From positions 1 to 64,000 of the forward strand of contig VGVQ01000009.1 of the NCBI GenBank assembly GCA_016874005.1: a DNA stretch of 64,000 bases, read 5' to 3'. Position 1 is the first letter of the stretch, and every line of letters begins with the position of its first letter. Source of the DNA: Gemmatimonadota bacterium (GTDB lineage: Bacteria; Gemmatimonadota; Gemmatimonadetes; Gemmatimonadales; GWC2-71-9). Shown piece after piece: positions 21,291 through 32,375 of the stretch. The translations under genes were made by a program, and so were the position numbers. Below the pieces are notes generated by a model. That model saw only the letters and a program-made list of their open reading frames with translations, was not told the DNA's origin and searched no databases.

Positions 21291-22781
21291 TTAGGCGCTC
21301 ACCCGGGCGAGAACGAACTCGGCGAACAGTCGGACGCCCATGGCGGTGGGGCCCCGGACCGAGGCGGCGTCCTCGCGGTCGGTGTAGGCGGTGGCCGCGA
21401 TGTCGAGGTGAACCCACGGGAACCCGTCGACGAACTCCTTGAGGAACCAGCCCGCGGTGATGCTCCCCCCCAACCGCCCTCCGGAGTTCTTCATGTCGGC
21501 GATGTCCGACTTGATCAGCTCACGGTATTCGTCCCACAACGGCAGTTCCCAGCCGCGTTCACCTGCCCGTTCGCCGGCGGCCAACACCTCTTGGACGAGC
21601 GGCGGCGGCTCTCCCATCACACCGGCGGCTACCTGGCCCAAGGCGATCCCGATCGCGCCGGTCAAGGTCGCGATGTCCAGAACGCAGGCTGGCTTGAACC
21701 GGCGGGCATAGGACAGGGCGTCGGCGAGGATCAGCCGGCCCTCCGCGTCGGTATTGACCACCTCGATCGTCTTGCCAAGGTGGCTCTTCACCACGTCGGC
21801 CGGGCGGTAGGCGGTGCCGGAGGGCATGTTCTCGACCGTCGGGATCAGGCCGATCACGTTCACCTTGGGGCGAAGTCGGCCGAGCATCTCGAAGGTGCCC
21901 AGCACGGCCGCGGCGCCGGACATGTCGTACTTCATGTCCTCCATCCGGTCCGCCGGTTTGATGGAGATGCCGCCGGTGTCGAAGGTGACCCCTTTGCCGA
22001 TCAGCACCACCGGCGCCCCGGCGTCGCCCGGATATTCGAGCACCACGAAACGGGGCTCCTGGGCGGAACCTTGAGCCACGGCGAGCAACGCCCCCATGCC
22101 CTCGGCTACGATCGCGGCCTGATCGAGAACGGTGACGCGGTGCCCGAGCCGGTCGGCGAGCTCGGCCGCGAATCGGCCGAGGTAGCTCGGGGTGCAGACG
22201 TTAGGCGGCAGCATCTGAATGCCCCGGGCCACCAGCCCCCCGGCTCCGATCGCGGCCCCGATGGCGTGTCCGGTTCGCGCCTCGGCCTCCGAACCGGCGT
22301 CGACGAGGAAGGTGATCGACTCGAGAGGCGGCTTGGGGTCCTCGGGCGGCTTCTTCATGTCGGGGAAGAACCAGGAGCCGACCGCGGCCCCTTCGGCGAG
22401 CACCTGGTAGCACTCTTTCGTCGTCAGCCCGCCAGCCGAACCGCCGGCGAGCGCGACGGTCGCGGAACCGGTCCCGAGTTGCCGAGCCCGTTTGGCGATG
22501 ATGGCCGAAGCCCGCCGGAGCTTCTGCCGGGTGACCTCGGCCGCCTTCCCCACCCCAACCAGCAGCAACCGAGTCGCCGGCCCGGGCGGATAGAAGAGCG
22601 CCGCCTCGTCCTTCTTGGCCTTGAAATCTCCGCTGGCGATCGCCGCCGCGAGTTGGCTCCCAGCCCCGGAAGCGAGGGTGGCTGGAAGGGCCGCAAGGGC
22701 CTCTTCCGAGGCGATGACCGCCAACAATGGCCCGGCCTGCGCGGCGGGCGTGCCAACCTGAATGGAGGAGGTGAAAGCCAT
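21291..22781 (-). CDS. pepA: Leucyl aminopeptidase (M17, cytosol aminopeptidase)
   Basis: Removes N-terminal residues from peptides with two metal ions. ATG 22781 gives 496 residues. The C-terminal catalytic domain shows GKGVTFDTGGISIKPAD, DMSGAAAVLG and the signature NTDAEGRLILADAL, which hold the metal ligands Lys, Asp and Glu. The N-terminal domain is the less conserved M17 one. The gene ends in an octamer copy (21289-21296) that supplies its TAA stop. PepA can also bind DNA in some bacteria; no evidence for that here. Confidence 0.96.
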   Translation of the reverse strand: MAFTSSIQVGTPAAQAGPLLAVIASEEALAALPATLASGAGSQLAAAIASGDFKAKKDEAALFYPPGPATRLLLVGVGKAAEVTRQKLRRASAIIAKRARQLGTGSATVALAGGSAGGLTTKECYQVLAEGAAVGSWFFPDMKKPPEDPKPPLESITFLVDAGSEAEARTGHAIGAAIGAGGLVARGIQMLPPNVCTPSYLGRFAAELADRLGHRVTVLDQAAIVAEGMGALLAVAQGSAQEPRFVVLEYPGDAGAPVVLIGKGVTFDTGGISIKPADRMEDMKYDMSGAAAVLGTFEMLGRLRPKVNVIGLIPTVENMPSGTAYRPADVVKSHLGKTIEVVNTDAEGRLILADALSYARRFKPACVLDIATLTGAIGIALGQVAAGVMGEPPPLVQEVLAAGERAGERGWELPLWDEYRELIKSDIADMKNSGGRLGGSITAGWFLKEFVDGFPWVHLDIAATAYTDREDAASVRGPTAMGVRLFAEFVLARVSA

Positions 22782-22803
22782 GCCGTGGGATCCCCGCGGA
22801 GTC

Positions 22804-22825
22804 GCCACTCGCCCGCCCGAGTGGC
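22804..22825. repeat. Perfect inverted repeat upstream of pepA
   Basis: Arms GCCACTCG (22804-22811) and CGAGTGGC (22818-22825) with a 6-base spacer, 22 bases before the pepA ATG in the gap between divergent transcripts. It could be an operator for a dimeric regulator or a hairpin in the pepA leader. No regulator gene is adjacent. Confidence 0.5.
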
Positions 22826-22949
22826 AAGATGTGGTTGCCGCTGCGCTTGGTCGGGTCAACCTAACCGCCAGCGCCGCAAAAGGAAACGAGGTACCGGGCC
22901 ATCCCGGGGAATCCGGGCTATCTTGCCTGGCCATCGCTCGGGAGACTCG

Positions 22950-24569: not shown

Positions 24570-25088
24570 TTACGGACGCCGATCTCGCAACGGGAACTGA
24601 CCCGGACGCTGACTGCGAATCTCCTGGACCCGCTGCATCAGCCGGTCGCGCATCAGGATGTACTGCCCCCGTTGCACCGGGGTCAGGACGTCGGCGAGGG
24701 CGGTAAGCTCGTCCTTGAAGGTCTGGACATAGGCCAACCGGCTATCGAGAATCTCGTCCGTCAGCTTGGTCACTTGCCGCTCATCGGCCGCCACCCCCGG
24801 CCGCATGACCGATCCGAGACGCTGCCGCAGCCCCCGCTCCTCTCGCTCGAGCTGGCGCCGTTTCTGGGCCCAGGTGAACAGTACGCTTCTGACCCTCGTT
24901 GCCTGATCCGGGTTGAGTCCAAGCTCGACCGTGAGCCGCTCCGCGAATCGCTCCTCGATCAGCTGTCGAAGTCGCTCGGCCCGCGGCCCGACAAACTCGG
25001 CCGAGTCCTGGGCCCGCGCCGGAATCAGCGCACCGCCGGTCAGAAGCAAGGCGGCGCAGACGATGACATCTCGTTTGATCCTCGACAT
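24570..25088 (-). CDS. Spy/CpxP/ZraP-like periplasmic protein
   Basis: Signal peptide at residues 1-27 followed by a helical, highly charged domain. Residues 40-160 show the alternation of helices and the ELGLNPDQ and LTPVQRGQY motifs that mark the LTxxQ family (Spy, CpxP, CnrX). It contains no histidine or cysteine, so classical metal coordination as in CnrX or ZraP is unlikely; a chaperone or stress-sensor role is more plausible. ATG 25088, two bases after the anti-sigma stop; a start five codons earlier is also open. Third gene of the sigma / anti-sigma operon. Confidence 0.8.
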   Translation of the reverse strand: MSRIKRDVIVCAALLLTGGALIPARAQDSAEFVGPRAERLRQLIEERFAERLTVELGLNPDQATRVRSVLFTWAQKRRQLEREERGLRQRLGSVMRPGVAADERQVTKLTDEILDSRLAYVQTFKDELTALADVLTPVQRGQYILMRDRLMQRVQEIRSQRPGQFPLRDRRP

Positions 25089-25090
25089 GT

Positions 25091-25585
25091 TCAGCTCTCC
25101 CAATCCTGGAGCACTTGCTCCAATTCGTCGGTCGACAGATCGTCGAGCCTCTGGTCACCGGTGGTTTCGTCAGCCGACAGCTCCGCCAGCACGGTCTCCA
25201 ACTCGCTACTTGCCAGGTCATCCAGCTCGCTCAACACGCCGGCCGGCCGCGCGCCGCGGTCGGAGCGGCCAGTCGGCACGAACTGCACTGCGAGCAAGAG
25301 CGCCGCCGCCGCCGCGAGCGACCAGACCCACCGACGTCGCCGTGCCGCCAACGAGACGACCGGAATCTCCCTCGGAGCGCTGGCCAGGCGCGTCAGGACC
25401 CTGGCCGACATCGCCGCCGGGTCGATCGCTGGCTGGGCGCCGAGACCGGCGACCGCCCGGACCAGGCGCCATTCCGCTGCACAGTCGGCACATTGGGCCA
25501 AGTGGGCGAGTTCCTCGGCCGACCAAGCCGCTTGCCCGTTGCCCACCGCAGGCATCCGCTCCGACAGCCGCTCGCAATGTGTCAC
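25091..25585 (-). CDS. Transmembrane anti-sigma factor with zinc-finger domain
   Basis: Likely holds the ECF sigma encoded just upstream in an inactive complex. The cytoplasmic N-terminal part has the zf-HC2-type HLAQCADC motif (HxxxCxxC). A single membrane helix follows at about residues 87-104, then a periplasmic tail. The tail is acidic and holds two copies of an L-D-D-L-x3-E-L-E-x-V-L motif about 32 residues apart. GTG start overlaps the sigma stop by four bases. Release of the sigma would need a signal sensed outside, perhaps through the Spy-like protein. Confidence 0.88.
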   Translation of the reverse strand: MTHCERLSERMPAVGNGQAAWSAEELAHLAQCADCAAEWRLVRAVAGLGAQPAIDPAAMSARVLTRLASAPREIPVVSLAARRRRWVWSLAAAAALLLAVQFVPTGRSDRGARPAGVLSELDDLASSELETVLAELSADETTGDQRLDDLSTDELEQVLQDWES

Positions 25586-26112
25586 TGGACGTACTCCTTC
25601 AGTCGCTTCACCGCGTTGTGGTAATGCACCCGAGCGGCCCCCGGCGTGGTCCCCAACGCCTCGCTGATGGCCCCGTACTCGAGACCCTGCTGCGCTCGCA
25701 ACAAGAACACCTCCCGCTGCAGCCGAGGCAATCTGGCCAACTCCGCCATGAGACGGGCCTCGATCTCATTCGCCCCGGCCTCGCCCTCCGGATCGGCGCT
25801 ATCGGCGGCGTCGTGACCGTCGATTGGCACCGTCACCTGGCGGCGCTCTCGCCGATAGGCGTCGCGGTGGAGGTTGGTGGCGATCCGAAAGAGCCAGGTC
25901 CGGAACGACGCCTCACCGCGCCAGGAATCGATCGCCCGAAAGGCCTTGAAGAACGCCTCTTGAGCCAGATCTTCCACCTCGGCCGAGCCGGCGCCGCTGG
26001 CCCTGAGGTAACGGCCCAACGGCATCGAATGCCGCCGGACCAACTCGTCGGCCGCGATTTGGTCTCCGGCAAGGAACCGAACGACCAGGTCTTCGTCGGA
26101 GGCATCAGTCAT
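25582..26112 (-). CDS. ECF-type RNA polymerase sigma factor
   Basis: Alternative sigma-70 factor of 176 residues with only regions 2 and 4. Region 2 has DLAQEAFFKAFRAIDSW and FRTWLFRIATNLHRD; region 4 has LPRLQREVFLLRAQQGLEYGAISEALGTTPGAARV. ATG 26112 begins at the normal distance before region 2; the frame is open upstream over the opposite-strand peptidase gene. It heads the operon sigma / anti-sigma / Spy-like protein and is probably autoregulated from the 130-base divergent gap. Confidence 0.94.
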   Translation of the reverse strand: MTDASDEDLVVRFLAGDQIAADELVRRHSMPLGRYLRASGAGSAEVEDLAQEAFFKAFRAIDSWRGEASFRTWLFRIATNLHRDAYRRERRQVTVPIDGHDAADSADPEGEAGANEIEARLMAELARLPRLQREVFLLRAQQGLEYGAISEALGTTPGAARVHYHNAVKRLKEYVQ

Positions 26113-26156
26113 CGGCCGAAGGTAAGACGCAAACTCGGGCCCGTTGTTAAAGGGAA

Positions 26157-26177
26157 CCGATAACTCATTGCCGATAA
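26157..26177. repeat. Direct repeat in the sigma / M16 divergent gap
   Basis: CCGATAA occurs at 26157-26163 and again at 26171-26177, 14 bases apart, in the A+T-rich centre of the 130-base gap. Just before the first copy is GGGAACC (26152-26158), which resembles an ECF -35 element reading toward the peptidase operon. No matching -10 at normal spacing is clear. This could be the regulatory core for both transcripts. Confidence 0.35.
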
Positions 26178-26242: not shown

Positions 26243-27583
26243 ATGCGCTCGTCGTCGTTGCTGCTCTCGTTCTGGCTCACCCCGATCGGCCTCGCGGCAC
26301 AGGGGCTCCCCCGTATTGCCATCGAGCAATACCGCTTGGATAATGGCCTCGCTGTCGTCCTCGCCCCGGACCGAAGCACCCAAGTCGTCACGGTCAACGT
26401 CTGGTACGACGTTGGGTCCCGCAATGAAGTGCGCGGCCGGACCGGATTCGCCCACCTGTTCGAGCACATGATGTTTCAGGGTTCGGCCAACGTGAAGAAA
26501 GGTGACCACTTCGCGCTGATCGAGCGGGCGGGCGGCGAGTCCAACGCCAGCACGGCCGAAGACCGGACCAACTATTTCGCGATGCTCCCGAGCAACCGGC
26601 TGAACCTCGGGCTGTGGCTCGAGGCCGATCGGATGCGGGCGCTCGCGGTGACCGCGGAGAACCTCGACAACCAACGAGAAGCCGTGAAGGAGGAACGGCG
26701 GCTCCGGGTGGACAATCAACCGTATACGGCCGTGATCTTCGAGGGACTCTACGGCCTCGAGGACAGCACCCGCTGCTTCCCTTACTCGCATTCCGTCATC
26801 GGCTCGATGGACGATCTCAACGCCGCCAAGGTCGAGGATGTCCAAGCGTTCTTCGACCTGTACTACGCGCCGAACAACGCCTCGCTCGTCGTCGCCGGCG
26901 ATTTCGACCCCACCGAGGCCAAACGGATGATCGGCGAGTACTTCGGCTCGATCCCGAGGGGCAAGTCGCCCCCGCCGGTTTCCTGCGACTTCCGATACGA
27001 CACTGGCTCGGTCCGGCGTTCCTGGCCCGACACGAAGGCCACCCTGCCAGCCACCTTTCAGGTCTATCGGGTGCCGCCGTATGACCACGCCGACTATCCT
27101 GCCCTCTCGCTGCTTTCGACCATTCTGGGCCAAGGTGAAAGCTCTCGGCTCAACAAATCAGTGGTCCGGACCCAGCGGAAGGCCCAGTTTGCCTTCACCG
27201 GCCTGAATCTGGCCGGACCTCGCCGCGGACCAGGCACTTTTTTCGTCGCCGCGATCGCCAACCAGGGAATTGCGGTCGACTCGGTCGACGCCGCGGTGGC
27301 CGCTGAGATCGCCGTCCTTCACCGGACCGGCGTCACCCCGGCCGAGCTGGAGAAGGCCAAGAACGGCTACCTTGCTGCCAGGATCCAACAGCACCAGATC
27401 TCGTACTTCCTCGCCGAATCCATTCAGGAAGCTGCCCTTTTCCTGGGCGACCCGGCCGCCGTGAACACCGACCCTGAGCGCTATCTCGCGGTCACCGCGG
27501 CCGACATTCGACGGGTCGCGGCGAAGTACCTGACGCCGGCCAACGGCGGGACATTCATCGTGACACCCGGGAGCGGCCAGTGA
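26243..27583 (+). CDS. Secreted M16 zinc peptidase, catalytic type
   Basis: Signal peptide at residues 1-19, then an insulinase-family peptidase of 446 residues. The inverted zinc motif HLFEH is at residues 71-75 and the third ligand Glu is at about residue 150, so it should be active. The C-terminal half is the M16 inactive-fold repeat. Typical M16B enzymes work as heterodimers with a non-catalytic homologue, and the next gene is exactly that, overlapping by four bases (GTGA). Acts in the periplasm or outside the cell; substrate unknown. Confidence 0.93.
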   Translation: MRSSSLLLSFWLTPIGLAAQGLPRIAIEQYRLDNGLAVVLAPDRSTQVVTVNVWYDVGSRNEVRGRTGFAHLFEHMMFQGSANVKKGDHFALIERAGGESNASTAEDRTNYFAMLPSNRLNLGLWLEADRMRALAVTAENLDNQREAVKEERRLRVDNQPYTAVIFEGLYGLEDSTRCFPYSHSVIGSMDDLNAAKVEDVQAFFDLYYAPNNASLVVAGDFDPTEAKRMIGEYFGSIPRGKSPPPVSCDFRYDTGSVRRSWPDTKATLPATFQVYRVPPYDHADYPALSLLSTILGQGESSRLNKSVVRTQRKAQFAFTGLNLAGPRRGPGTFFVAAIANQGIAVDSVDAAVAAEIAVLHRTGVTPAELEKAKNGYLAARIQQHQISYFLAESIQEAALFLGDPAAVNTDPERYLAVTAADIRRVAAKYLTPANGGTFIVTPGSGQ

Positions 27584-29667
27584 ACCGACGGCGCCCCCGT
27601 TGCATCCGCTGGGCTCGATGGGCCGTCGTCGTCGTTGGAGCGAGCGTCCAAGCCCAAGAGCCGCGCCAGGCGCCGCCCGCGCCGGGGCCGTTGGTCCCCG
27701 CGGCACTGCCCCCGATCGCGGAGGCGGTCCTACCCAACGGGCTGCGGATCGTCGTCGTCGAAAATCGCCGCCACCCGATCTTGTCGCTCACCCTGGTGCT
27801 GCCGGCCGGCCGGGTCCTCGACCCGGCCGGCAAGGAAGGCCTCGCGTCCATGGTGGCGGGGCTCCTGACCAAGGGAGCCGGGGCCAGATCCGCCGATCAG
27901 ATCGCCGAGACGATCGAGCGGGTGGGCGGATCGCTCGGAGCCAATGCCGGAGCCGACTACTTCGCGGTGACTGCCACTGCGCTTTCCAAGGACCGAGCCT
28001 TGGCGTTCTCGCTGGTCGGCGATGCGGTCGCTCGCCCAATCTTCGCGGCGACCGAGATCGAGCTGCTTCGGACCCAAACCCTCTCCGCGCTCGAACTAGA
28101 GCGGTCTCAGCCTGACGCGTTGGCCGCTCGGCAGCTGGACCGAGTGCTCTACGGCAGTCACCCGTACGGCCGTCGAGCGACCCAGACCTCGGTCCAGCGG
28201 ATCAGTCGGACCGACCTGATCGGGTTTCACCGATCTCGGATCCGACCCCGAGGGGCACTTCTGGTCGTCGCGGGAGACATCACCCTGGCCGAGGTCCGCC
28301 GGCTGGCGACCCCGGCCTTCCGCGGTTGGCTCGGAACACCCATGCCCGCGCCCACGCTGCCGGCGCCACCGACTCGAACCAGGCCCGAGATCACCCTGGT
28401 GCACCGACCCGGCTCGGTGCAATCGAATCTGATCGTGGCAAACCTGACCTTCGGGCCGAACGACCCCCGCTATCACGCGGCCGTGGTGGTGAACAAACTG
28501 CTGGGCGAGGGCGCCGACTCCCGATTGTTCCAGGTCCTCCGCGAACAGAAGGGTTGGACCTATGGCGCCTACTCGTCGCTGACCCGACGGCGAGGTCTCG
28601 GGCGTTTCGAGGCGTCCACCGAAGTCCGGAGCGAGGTTACCGACTCGGCCCTCACCGAGATCCTGACCCAGCTGGGCACCATCCGATCCGTCCCGGTTTC
28701 CGGCGAGGAGTTGGAACGCGCGAAGGCCGCGATCGTTGGCTCCTACCCACTCACGGTTCAGACGGCGCAGCAAGTCGCCGACGCGGTGGCCGACGTCCGG
28801 CTCTACGCCTTGCCCCGTGACTACTTGGAGACCTATCGCGTCAAGATCGGCGCCGTTTCACCGGACGACTTCGTGGCCGCCGCCCAGGCAGCGATCCGGC
28901 CCGCGGAGGCGGCCATCGTGGTGGTTGGCGACGGTGGGAAGATCCTCGACGGCCTCAAGGGCATCGCCCCGGTCTCGATCGTCGATGGCGAAGGCGCCAG
29001 CCTTTCCGAAGCGGATCTCACGCTGACCGCTTCCGTGCTCCCGATCGACCCGGCCAAACTCCTGGCGACCCGGGACAGTTTTTCGGTCCGGGTCCAGGGA
29101 GCCCCATTTGGGGTGATCACCTCGAGTCTCACCCCGACCGATTCCGGCTACCGGTATACCGAGCACAGCGCCATCGGCGGCTTCGTCGAGCAAACCACCA
29201 TCCTCGATCTGGACCGAAGCGGCGGCATGGTTGCCGTGAAGCAGGACGGCAAGGCCCAGGGACAACCCACGACGATCGAGGTTCGCTACCGGGGCGGGCG
29301 AGCCACGGGCTCGGCGAATACCATCTCGCCGGAGGGACCCAAGGCCGTGACCGTCGACACCGTGGTCGCGGCCGGCACGATCGACGACAACGCGATCCAG
29401 GCGATCCTCCCTGCTCTTCCCTGGGCTCCCAACGCCAGCTGGTCGTTCAACGTATTCAGCGCGGGGCAAAACGAATCCCGGGTCACCTCGCTCAAGGTGC
29501 TGGGGACCGAAATGGTCAAGCTGGACAGGGGATCGATCGAGAGCTACAAAGTGGAATGGAGTGGCGGCTGGCAACCGGCGACGTTTTGGATTTCCGTAGC
29601 GATTCCCCACAAGCTGGTGAAGATCGGGATTGCCAATGCCCCGATCGAAATCGTTCGCGTCAAGTAA
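27580..29667 (+). CDS. Non-catalytic M16 subunit fused to a C-terminal beta domain
   Basis: Signal peptide ending near residue 24 (VQAQE). Residues 45-460 form an M16 peptidase homologue in which the zinc motif is replaced by SMVAG, so it cannot be catalytic itself; GWTYGAYSS is retained as in partner subunits of M16B dimers. Residues 470-695 are an extra beta-rich domain with repeated YRG and WSG stretches, somewhat like DUF3108-type periplasmic proteins; this likeness is by eye only. GTG start, coupled to the active subunit. Confidence 0.88.
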   Translation: MNRRRPRCIRWARWAVVVVGASVQAQEPRQAPPAPGPLVPAALPPIAEAVLPNGLRIVVVENRRHPILSLTLVLPAGRVLDPAGKEGLASMVAGLLTKGAGARSADQIAETIERVGGSLGANAGADYFAVTATALSKDRALAFSLVGDAVARPIFAATEIELLRTQTLSALELERSQPDALAARQLDRVLYGSHPYGRRATQTSVQRISRTDLIGFHRSRIRPRGALLVVAGDITLAEVRRLATPAFRGWLGTPMPAPTLPAPPTRTRPEITLVHRPGSVQSNLIVANLTFGPNDPRYHAAVVVNKLLGEGADSRLFQVLREQKGWTYGAYSSLTRRRGLGRFEASTEVRSEVTDSALTEILTQLGTIRSVPVSGEELERAKAAIVGSYPLTVQTAQQVADAVADVRLYALPRDYLETYRVKIGAVSPDDFVAAAQAAIRPAEAAIVVVGDGGKILDGLKGIAPVSIVDGEGASLSEADLTLTASVLPIDPAKLLATRDSFSVRVQGAPFGVITSSLTPTDSGYRYTEHSAIGGFVEQTTILDLDRSGGMVAVKQDGKAQGQPTTIEVRYRGGRATGSANTISPEGPKAVTVDTVVAAGTIDDNAIQAILPALPWAPNASWSFNVFSAGQNESRVTSLKVLGTEMVKLDRGSIESYKVEWSGGWQPATFWISVAIPHKLVKIGIANAPIEIVRVK

Positions 29668-29682
29668 CCTCCTGGAGATGGC

Positions 29683-31092
29683 ATGCATCGTTTCCTGACC
29701 CTGGCCCCGCTCGCGGCGGCATCCCTGCAGCTCGGATTCGACTCGGCGCCGCTCTCGGCGCAGGCGCCGCCCTCGGCGGAGCGCTTCACCGACACCCTGA
29801 GTTTCGCTCGACCGCAGTACCGATCGACCTATCAGCGCCGCCAGAATCCACCGGTCTTGATCCGGAACGCCACGGTGATGACCGCGACCGGTTCGGAATT
29901 CCGAGGCTCGATCCTGTTTCAGGACGGCAAGATCGTCGCTGTGGGGCCCGAGGTGGGCACCCCTCCCCCGGGAACCCAGGTCGTCGACGGCGCGGGCAAG
30001 TACGTCACCCCAGGACTGGTCGACACTCACAGCCACATCGGCGTCTACGCCGCGCCCGGGACCCAGGCCGAAAGCGATGGCAACGAAGCAACCAATCCGA
30101 ACACGGCCGAGGTGTGGGCCGAGCATTCGATCTGGCCCCATGACCCGCAGATCCCCCTCGCCATCGCGGGGGGCGTGACGGTCGCCCAGATCCTCCCGGG
30201 GTCCGCGAATTTGATCGGAGGACGATCGGCGGTCATCCGAATGGTGCCCGCTCGAACCGTGCAGGAGATGAAGTTCCCGGGCGCGCCGTACGGAGTGAAG
30301 ATGGCCTGCGGCGAGAACCCGAAGCGGGTCTACGCCAATCTGGGGCCATCGACTCGGATGGGCAACATGGCCGGCTACCGAGCCGCGTTCATCCAGGCGG
30401 AGCAATACCGCCAGCGGTGGGACAAGTGGAACACGGAACGCAAGGGCCAGCCACCCGCCCGGGACCTGCGGGCCGAGACTCTCGCCGGGGTCCTTCGAGG
30501 CGAGATCACGGTCCAGAATCACTGCTACCGGGCCGACGAGATGGCGCAGATGCTCGACCTGGCCACCGAATTCGGGTTCAAGATCCGGTCGTTCCATCAC
30601 GGCGTCGAGGCATACAAGATCGCCGATCTGTTGGCCAAAGCCGGGACCGCCGCGTCGATCTGGGCGGACTGGGGCGGGTTCAAGATGGAGGCCTACGATC
30701 AGATCCTCGAGAATCTGGCGCTGGTCACCAAAGCCGGCGCCGTCGGGGTTCTCCATACCGACAGCCCCGATGGCATTCAGCGGATGAACCAAGATGCCGC
30801 CAAAGCGATGTACGCCGGCACCCGGGCCGGGCTCGCGGTGACCCGGGACCAGGCGATCCGGTGGATCACGGCAAACCCGGCCTGGGCGTTAGGCATCGAC
30901 CACCTGACCGGGACCCTCGAGGTCGGCAAGATGGCCGACGTGGTGCTGTGGTCCGGCGACCCATTTTCGGTGTATTCCAAGGCCGAGAAAGTCTGGAACG
31001 AGGGATGGCTGGCATTCGACCGGCTCGACAAGACCCGTCAATACAAGACCGACTTCAACCTGGGCCACGGCGAGCCGGGGGTGGGCCGATGA
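29683..31092 (+). CDS. Secreted amidohydrolase, metal ligands intact
   Basis: Signal peptide at residues 1-26, then a metal-dependent TIM-barrel hydrolase like imidazolonepropionases and related exported amidohydrolases. Ligands visible are His116 and His118 (DTHSH), His280, His305 or His306 (FHHGVEAYK) and Asp360 (HTDSP). The C-terminal ALGIDHLTGTLEVGKMADVVLW returns to the small beta domain. 469 residues. Likely acts on cyclic amides or dipeptides made outside the cytoplasm; substrate unknown. It follows the M16 pair by 15 bases and overlaps the next gene by four. An octamer copy at 30887-30894 encodes Leu-Gly. Confidence 0.9.
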   Translation: MHRFLTLAPLAAASLQLGFDSAPLSAQAPPSAERFTDTLSFARPQYRSTYQRRQNPPVLIRNATVMTATGSEFRGSILFQDGKIVAVGPEVGTPPPGTQVVDGAGKYVTPGLVDTHSHIGVYAAPGTQAESDGNEATNPNTAEVWAEHSIWPHDPQIPLAIAGGVTVAQILPGSANLIGGRSAVIRMVPARTVQEMKFPGAPYGVKMACGENPKRVYANLGPSTRMGNMAGYRAAFIQAEQYRQRWDKWNTERKGQPPARDLRAETLAGVLRGEITVQNHCYRADEMAQMLDLATEFGFKIRSFHHGVEAYKIADLLAKAGTAASIWADWGGFKMEAYDQILENLALVTKAGAVGVLHTDSPDGIQRMNQDAAKAMYAGTRAGLAVTRDQAIRWITANPAWALGIDHLTGTLEVGKMADVVLWSGDPFSVYSKAEKVWNEGWLAFDRLDKTRQYKTDFNLGHGEPGVGR

Positions 31093-32375
31093 ACGCCCTG
31101 AGGCTCGAATCGAGGCCCGGCCCGGTCGCCGGGCGGGGGCGCTGGCAGGCGTTGGCAGTGGCCGGAATGGTCGTGCTGTGGTCCACCGCCGCGCAGGCCC
31201 AAACCGTTGCGATCACCGGTGGGAACGTCTTCCCGGTGTCCGGTCCCAAGATCGAAGGCGGCAACGTCATCATCACCGGTGGACGGGTGGTGGCGGTTGG
31301 CCGCAACGTCCCGGTCCCGGCCGGAGCCCGGGTGATCGACGCCACGGGAAAGTGGGTGACCCCCGGGTTGATCCATGCCAACGCCAGCGCCGGTGCTGGG
31401 GTCGGCGGTTTGGGCGGCTTGGGTGAAAGCCGGAAGCAGGGTGATATCAACCCGTCGTTCAATCTCACGGCGGGACTCGATCCTGAGGCGATCACGATCC
31501 CGGTGGTACGGACCGGCGGCGTGACCTCCGGGATCGTCGTCCCGGATGGGGGCCTCCTTGCGGGAGCCGCGGTGGCCCTCGACTACCACGGCGATCGGGC
31601 CGACCAGATGGCCATCCGGTCGGTGGCGCTGTCACTCAACCTCGGGGCTGGCAGCCGCGGCGCGGGCGGCGGGAGCCGAGCCGGGGCGATCGCGCGGCTC
31701 AAGCGGTTGATCGCGGATGCCGTCGAGTACGATCGGCGTCGATTGGAGTATCGCCGGGCCGCGACCCAAGCCTACTCGGCGCCGGTCGAGGAACTCGACG
31801 CCCTGCTCCCGGCGATTCGAGGACAGCTGCCCTTCTACGTCTCCGCCAATCGCAAGATGGACATCCAGAACGCGATTCGTCTGGCCGCCGAGCACCGGCT
31901 TCGCCTGGTCATTCTCGGCGGAGTCGAGGCCTGGAAGGTCGCAGCCGACCTTGCCCGCGCCGGGATCCCCGTCGCGCTGGAACCGAACAAAGACATCCCG
32001 GATTTCGAAGGACTCGGGGCGCGACTCGACAACATCGCCCTCCTCCGCGAGGCGGGAGTCAAGACCATCATCGCGCAAGGCGATCCTGGCGGCGAGCGGA
32101 GCCTTCGCTACGCGGCCGGCAATGCGGTGCGCAATGGGATCAGCTGGGACGACGCCCTGAAAAGCGTCACCCAGTGGCCGGCGGAGGCCTTCGGGCTGAC
32201 CGACTATGGGACCCTTGCCCCCGGCAAGGTCGCCAACGTCGTCATCTGGTCGGGCGATCCGTTCGAGTTCTCGTCAGCGGCGGAAACGGTCCTGATCCGA
32301 GGCGTCGAGACCTCGTTGCGAACGCGGGAGCACGAGTTGCGCGATCGCTATCGAACCCTTCCGCCACCTCGGTAG
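31089..32375 (+). CDS. Amidohydrolase homologue lacking metal ligands (pseudoenzyme)
   Basis: Signal peptide near residues 15-37 and the same fold as the preceding gene. Aligning by conserved blocks, the HxH motif has become IHANA (second His lost), the strand-5 His is replaced in VSANRK, and the strand-6 His is Gly in LGGVEAWK. Only an Asp in the strand-8 motif remains (GDPGG). It should therefore be inactive, as a partner or regulatory subunit. ATG 31089 overlaps the previous stop; a longer upstream frame is a shadow. A Gly-rich stretch occurs around residues 185-200. Confidence 0.87.
   Translation: MNALRLESRPGPVAGRGRWQALAVAGMVVLWSTAAQAQTVAITGGNVFPVSGPKIEGGNVIITGGRVVAVGRNVPVPAGARVIDATGKWVTPGLIHANASAGAGVGGLGGLGESRKQGDINPSFNLTAGLDPEAITIPVVRTGGVTSGIVVPDGGLLAGAAVALDYHGDRADQMAIRSVALSLNLGAGSRGAGGGSRAGAIARLKRLIADAVEYDRRRLEYRRAATQAYSAPVEELDALLPAIRGQLPFYVSANRKMDIQNAIRLAAEHRLRLVILGGVEAWKVAADLARAGIPVALEPNKDIPDFEGLGARLDNIALLREAGVKTIIAQGDPGGERSLRYAAGNAVRNGISWDDALKSVTQWPAEAFGLTDYGTLAPGKVANVVIWSGDPFEFSSAAETVLIRGVETSLRTREHELRDRYRTLPPPR

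Follow-up and report, generated by a model that had tools for sequence, protein, structure and literature searches.

A Gemmatimonadota operon of two enzyme/pseudoenzyme pairs, one of them an amidohydrolase and a ligand-free paralogue that recur together across phyla

Four same-strand genes at positions 26243-32375 of a Gemmatimonadota contig encode two consecutive enzyme/pseudoenzyme pairs, as judged from motifs and Pfam domains. The second pair, an amidohydrolase followed by a paralogue that has lost all of its metal ligands, recurs as a unit in many phyla. We consider it probable that the operon specifies two exported heteromeric hydrolases, an A-B peptidase and a C-D amidohydrolase, with D as a non-catalytic subunit of C. 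The A-B pair is of a known kind. The C-D arrangement is apparently undescribed, as we found no paper describing an active/inactive amidohydrolase pair arrangement in the open-access literature. Its relatives (L121) likewise point to Gemmatimonadota as the phylum of the window. The window (the whole stretch of DNA analyzed) comprises 64,000 nucleotides of contig VGVQ01000009.1 and includes the following genes:

26243-27583, plus strand: A, M16B-type zinc peptidase, active subunit (Pfam PF00675/PF05193), with a probable weak signal peptide
27580-29667, plus strand: B, M16 homologue without the zinc motif and with a C-terminal DUF3108 domain (Pfam PF00675/PF05193/PF11306)
29683-31092, plus strand: C, amidohydrolase with a complete metal ligand set and a signal peptide
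31089-32375, plus strand: D, dead amidohydrolase paralogue with all six ligand positions lost and a signal peptide ending AAQA|Q

The A and B genes overlap by GTGA (27580-27583), B and C are separated by a 15 nt gap, and C and D overlap by ATGA (31089-31092). A first-pass annotation of this DNA, made from the sequence by itself, had recognized both the two successive pairs and the tight spacing at three gene borders, and we confirm both. It also assigned signal peptides to all four proteins. Using a crude heuristic, we found clear signal peptides in B, C, and D, while that of A scored just under the threshold (MRSSSLLLSFWLTPIGLAAQG); export of all four proteins is predicted, with the least clear signal in A. 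A scan of the operon for promoters and terminators yielded nothing informative. Head to head with the operon is a group of divergent genes on the minus strand (24570-26166), which includes a sigma-70-family regulator (25582-26166), an LTXXQ-motif protein (24570-25103) and a short protein without a Pfam match. Together, these genes resemble a small regulon for envelope or metal stress. The minus strand also carries an M17 leucyl-aminopeptidase-type gene (21291-22934), located a few kb upstream of the operon.

Both C and D are amidohydrolase homologues based on Pfam, and they share 28% identity. C keeps six metal ligands (H116, H118, K206, H280, H306, and D360), as had been noted before. These constitute the subtype I set, i.e., HxH, Lys on strand 4, His on strands 5 and 6, and Asp on strand 8, and the strand positions agree with the AF2 model. 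We aligned 44 C and 41 D sequences, those of the window among them. All 44 C proteins retain the four ligand His residues, the Lys, and D360, and not one of the 41 D proteins retains a ligand His. The ligand loss reported for D in the first-pass annotation is real, and it is more extensive than the three of four His positions given there: all four His, the Lys and the aligned Asp are gone, and the six positions are occupied by N, S, S, S, G, and G. The H97 of D aligns with D114 of C, not with a ligand. D lacks the subtype I set and was classed as a dead homologue. Among 24 other amidohydrolase frames sampled from the same genome as a control, 23 retain HxH and one has N-H; thus, ligand loss sets the D type apart and is not background.

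Across the D orthologues, many different residues occur at the six ligand positions. No His or Cys reaches 90% conservation among them, the closest being H400 (29/41) and H334 (21/41), and alternative metal ligands in D were ruled out on this basis. D orthologues do keep the invariant polar residues D84, R141, D210, D258, E280, N315, and D390, as might an enzyme in its own right whose active site has changed or works without metal, but given the variability at the ligand positions and the lack of a conserved His or Cys we regard such an enzyme as very improbable.

The two proteins have the same best PDB match, 3ooq (E = 3e-67 for C and 9e-35 for D), and the next best matches are far weaker (6e-11 and 7e-9, respectively). 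The single-chain AF2 models of C and D (alignment depth 21 and 26) have well-predicted cores, with pLDDT values of 81.5 for C and 84.5 for D, and Foldseek aligned them to 3ooq with TMt values of 0.92 and 0.88. Among the structure matches, there was none to a solved D-type protein.

An alignment of active domains served to scan named genomes for related loci. The 80 loci nearest to C are from Pseudomonadota, Myxococcota, Acidobacteriota, Bacteroidota, Planctomycetota, Verrucomicrobiota, Marinimicrobia, Bacillota, Actinomycetota, and Heimdallarchaeota. All collected loci together contain 157 active-type domains, of which 140 are followed directly by a dead domain, eight end at a contig edge, and nine had no downstream dead domain detected. 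Among these nine, L054 and L092 do have a D homologue according to BLAST, which was missed by the stricter domain call, and L167 has a dead domain upstream only. A TAG stop codon interrupts the D homologue of L054, which may reflect genuine loss of the gene or an error in the draft sequence. Solo active-type proteins were identified six times, in five genomes of the sample, from Bacillota, Actinomycetota, and an archaeon.

A second layout was detected for 56 active-type domains, which also have an upstream dead domain, in most cases joined to the active domain in a single chain of ~1000 aa. The active domain shares an open reading frame with the upstream dead domain at 41 loci, with the downstream dead domain at eight, and with both at two. 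Single-chain fusions of active and downstream dead domains occur in Myxococcota (L143, with a frame of 870 aa, and L144) and elsewhere. The ATGA overlap is retained in most relatives. The active domain of L208 forms the end of an open frame of 1539 codons, and ~3.3 kb separate it from the dead domain, the sole such gap we noticed. The loss of every catalytic ligand could be read as the decay of a functionless duplicate. We reject this explanation, which is scarcely credible for a protein that is intact beside C in many phyla and has one apparent ancient origin.

The ancestry of the pair was evaluated using a tree of 113 domains, rooted on the solo proteins, which fall outside. The paired active domains form one clade with moderate support only (SH-aLRT 84), all dead domains form another (94), and the upstream dead domains are a single clade as well (100). 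The proposed active/dead pair comprises dead domains that are monophyletic and are adjacent or fused to their active counterparts. The active and dead subtrees mirror each other (L060 with L118, L117 with L192, the pair type, and the triad type), and active and dead distances are correlated (r = 0.84, 42 pairs), although mirrored trees and such a correlation are expected from the joint descent of neighbors and alone are no proof of contact. Based on these sequence relationships, the active and dead copies have apparently been inherited together since before the carrier lineages diverged. The genome that includes the window encodes a second, divergent active/dead pair (L060, contig C11, about 105617-108063), which is sister to the L118 pair.

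From the ancient co-inheritance, the overlap within the operon and the natural fusions, we infer that C and D form an obligate, mostly exported active/dead heteromer. In this complex, C would carry a subtype-I binuclear metal center comprising HxH, a probably carbamylated Lys206, His280, His306, and Asp360. D would be a non-catalytic subunit required for assembly or stability, for closing the active site, or for letting substrate in, and C would need D for its activity. More generally, we lean toward the view that these mostly exported, phylum-spanning amidohydrolases function only as active/dead pairs or triads, which arose by one duplication and total ligand loss, and that their monoderm and archaeal cousins stayed single-gene.

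D might instead work on its own as a binding protein or receptor, with the substrate or product of C as one possible ligand. Consistent with this, mean identity over the same genomes is lower for D (62%) than for C (76%), indicating faster evolution of D. In most lineages, D also carries a signal peptide of its own, and reuse of its pocket is conceivable. A receptor is nevertheless improbable, as the one-chain fusions, the start/stop overlap and the near-universal adjacency all point to a 1:1 assembly.

Among first domains, the simple heuristic detected signal-peptide-like starts in 80/84 of the active and 137/165 of the dead ones. About two dozen relatives have a short D that starts with MIA[FLV]LLAQTIAITGG and overlaps the stop codon of C (L055-L059, L061-L065, L081, L082, L085-L091, L093-L096, and L120; also L203). 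This form begins with MIAFLLAQTIAITGG; just eight residues (MIAFLLAQ) precede its mature fold, and it is without an ordinary signal peptide. The C protein in these genomes looks like a lipoprotein. If the short D is cytoplasmic, it cannot partner C in the same compartment, and this would count against the C-D heteromer. Fusion of C and D by frameshifting in the short-D genomes was rejected after inspection of the junctions by eye, as there was no obvious slippery sequence.

The first pair shows the features of an M16 peptidase and its inactive homologue. HLFEH is located at residues 71-75 of A, with E150/E151 downstream, and the zinc motif is intact in 42/45 A sequences. The motif is absent from B. 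Instead, B has R321 and Y328, seven residues apart, which are conserved in 43/46 B sequences and absent from A; we take this R/Y pair to be the mark of an M16B inactive subunit. With Pfam M16 domains in both proteins, the original reading of an active M16 peptidase followed by a homologue without the zinc motif holds. The best PDB matches for A are 4nnz and 3amj_C (“zinc peptidase active subunit”), and for B the best is 3amj_B (“zinc peptidase inactive subunit”). With a zinc motif in A and an R/Y-type pair in B, A-B looks like the usual M16B heterodimer. M16B proteases are described as mostly heterodimers with one HXXEH, including SPH2681/SPH2682 and TTHA1264/1265 (2025 review, PMC12731061), and A-B is therefore ordinary except for DUF3108. 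A and B would assemble into an exported clam-shell peptidase with a single composite active site, to which A supplies the zinc and B supplies the R/Y pair and half of the chamber.

The DUF3108 domain at the C-terminus of B (residues 501-679, or about 480-695 with its margins taken more widely), which was overlooked in the first-pass annotation, would be an accessory part of B, and in relatives it also occurs by itself. In two congeneric genomes, a stand-alone DUF3108 protein with its own signal-peptide-like start is encoded directly before C-D, where it replaces the M16 pair (L043:9648-10373 and, on the minus strand, L045:9419-10405). Separate DUF3108 proteins with such a start also occur in L098 and L115, away from C-D. 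In L050, L110, and L111, the A homologue lacks both zinc His residues (ARLFER or SRLFEQ in place of HLFEH), and thus both M16 subunits are dead. In L050, an active C and a D are still present downstream.

We searched 102 genomes of the window's own family for the four genes, counting neighborhoods by hand; further copies were cut by contig ends. The complete A-B-C-D order was identified in 29 other genomes, giving 30 copies with that of the window, from 13 genera including the window's. The gene order is conserved within the family, and two genomes of the sister family f3 have it in full as well. One genome each of f6 and f7 has A-B located 1.4-1.7 kb before C-D. In a sample of 298 genomes from the phylum, 50 encode both B and C (E ≤ 1e-100); the two are linked in 30 of these (28 within 200 nt) and unlinked in 20. 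The neighboring family f2 has both modules and they are unlinked in all 16 genomes. C and D occur together throughout the phylum sample, several genera of the window's family have A-B but no C-D, and no M16 pair directly adjoins C-D in any other phylum sampled. Given that the linkage is absent in f2 and in the other phyla and that C and D stay together, we conclude that A-B and C-D are two separable modules that were joined, not one indivisible system.

These patterns bear on the earlier suggestion that A-B-C-D act as one secreted two-stage peptide-degrading machine, in which the M16 peptidase cuts and C-D hydrolyzes dipeptides or cyclic amides. The four-gene order in the 30 genomes and in the sister family is in line with this idea, as are distant C homologues that include Xaa-Pro dipeptidase, the Arg carboxypeptidase Cc2672, and prolidases. 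Yet the modules are apart in every f2 genome, C-D lacks an adjacent M16 pair in all other phyla sampled, and L050 keeps the operon despite the loss of the zinc motif from A. Beyond the shared operon the single assembly is unsupported, and we consider it unlikely. For two separate modules, as we prefer, C may act on small peptides or peptide-like amides, perhaps the products of A-B. The known activities of distant relatives of C include those of dipeptidases and carboxypeptidases, among others, and this kinship would suit an enzyme that acts after an M16 peptidase, but at such low identity no substrate can be assigned.

To our knowledge, pseudoenzyme partners have so far been known one by one. 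The amidohydrolase partner described here is near-obligate and ancient, seems to have arisen once and is sometimes fused to its active twin, and the pair thus offers a natural series for probing the role of a dead subunit. Genome annotation that labels both genes “amidohydrolase family protein” misleads in one of every two cases, and assays of the active protein alone may fail.

Among known systems, A-B resembles the M16B heterodimers (SPH2681/SPH2682, PDB 3AMJ; TTHA1264/TTHA1265; MPP beta/alpha) in that adjacent genes encode a match to the active subunit with the zinc motif and a match to the inactive subunit with the conserved R/Y; the DUF3108 domain at the C-terminus of B is the difference. 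The structure closest to C and D in both sequence and fold is that of an uncharacterized Thermotoga maritima amidohydrolase (PDB 3OOQ). It has all six ligands, as does C, but aligns from residue 57 of C on and lacks the N-terminal leader region. CRMPs are dead dihydropyrimidinase homologues that form tetramers. These dihydropyrimidinase-related proteins share the amidohydrolase fold, and the D profile matches them over a short stretch, but they are eukaryotic and are not operon partners of an active enzyme. The nearest precedent for D is the pseudo-dihydroorotase (pDHO/PyrX) of Pseudomonas ATCase, an inactive subunit with the amidohydrolase fold without which its partner is inactive (PMC7053772). 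In that case, however, the partner is a transcarbamoylase rather than the subunit's own active paralogue, and the complex is cytoplasmic.
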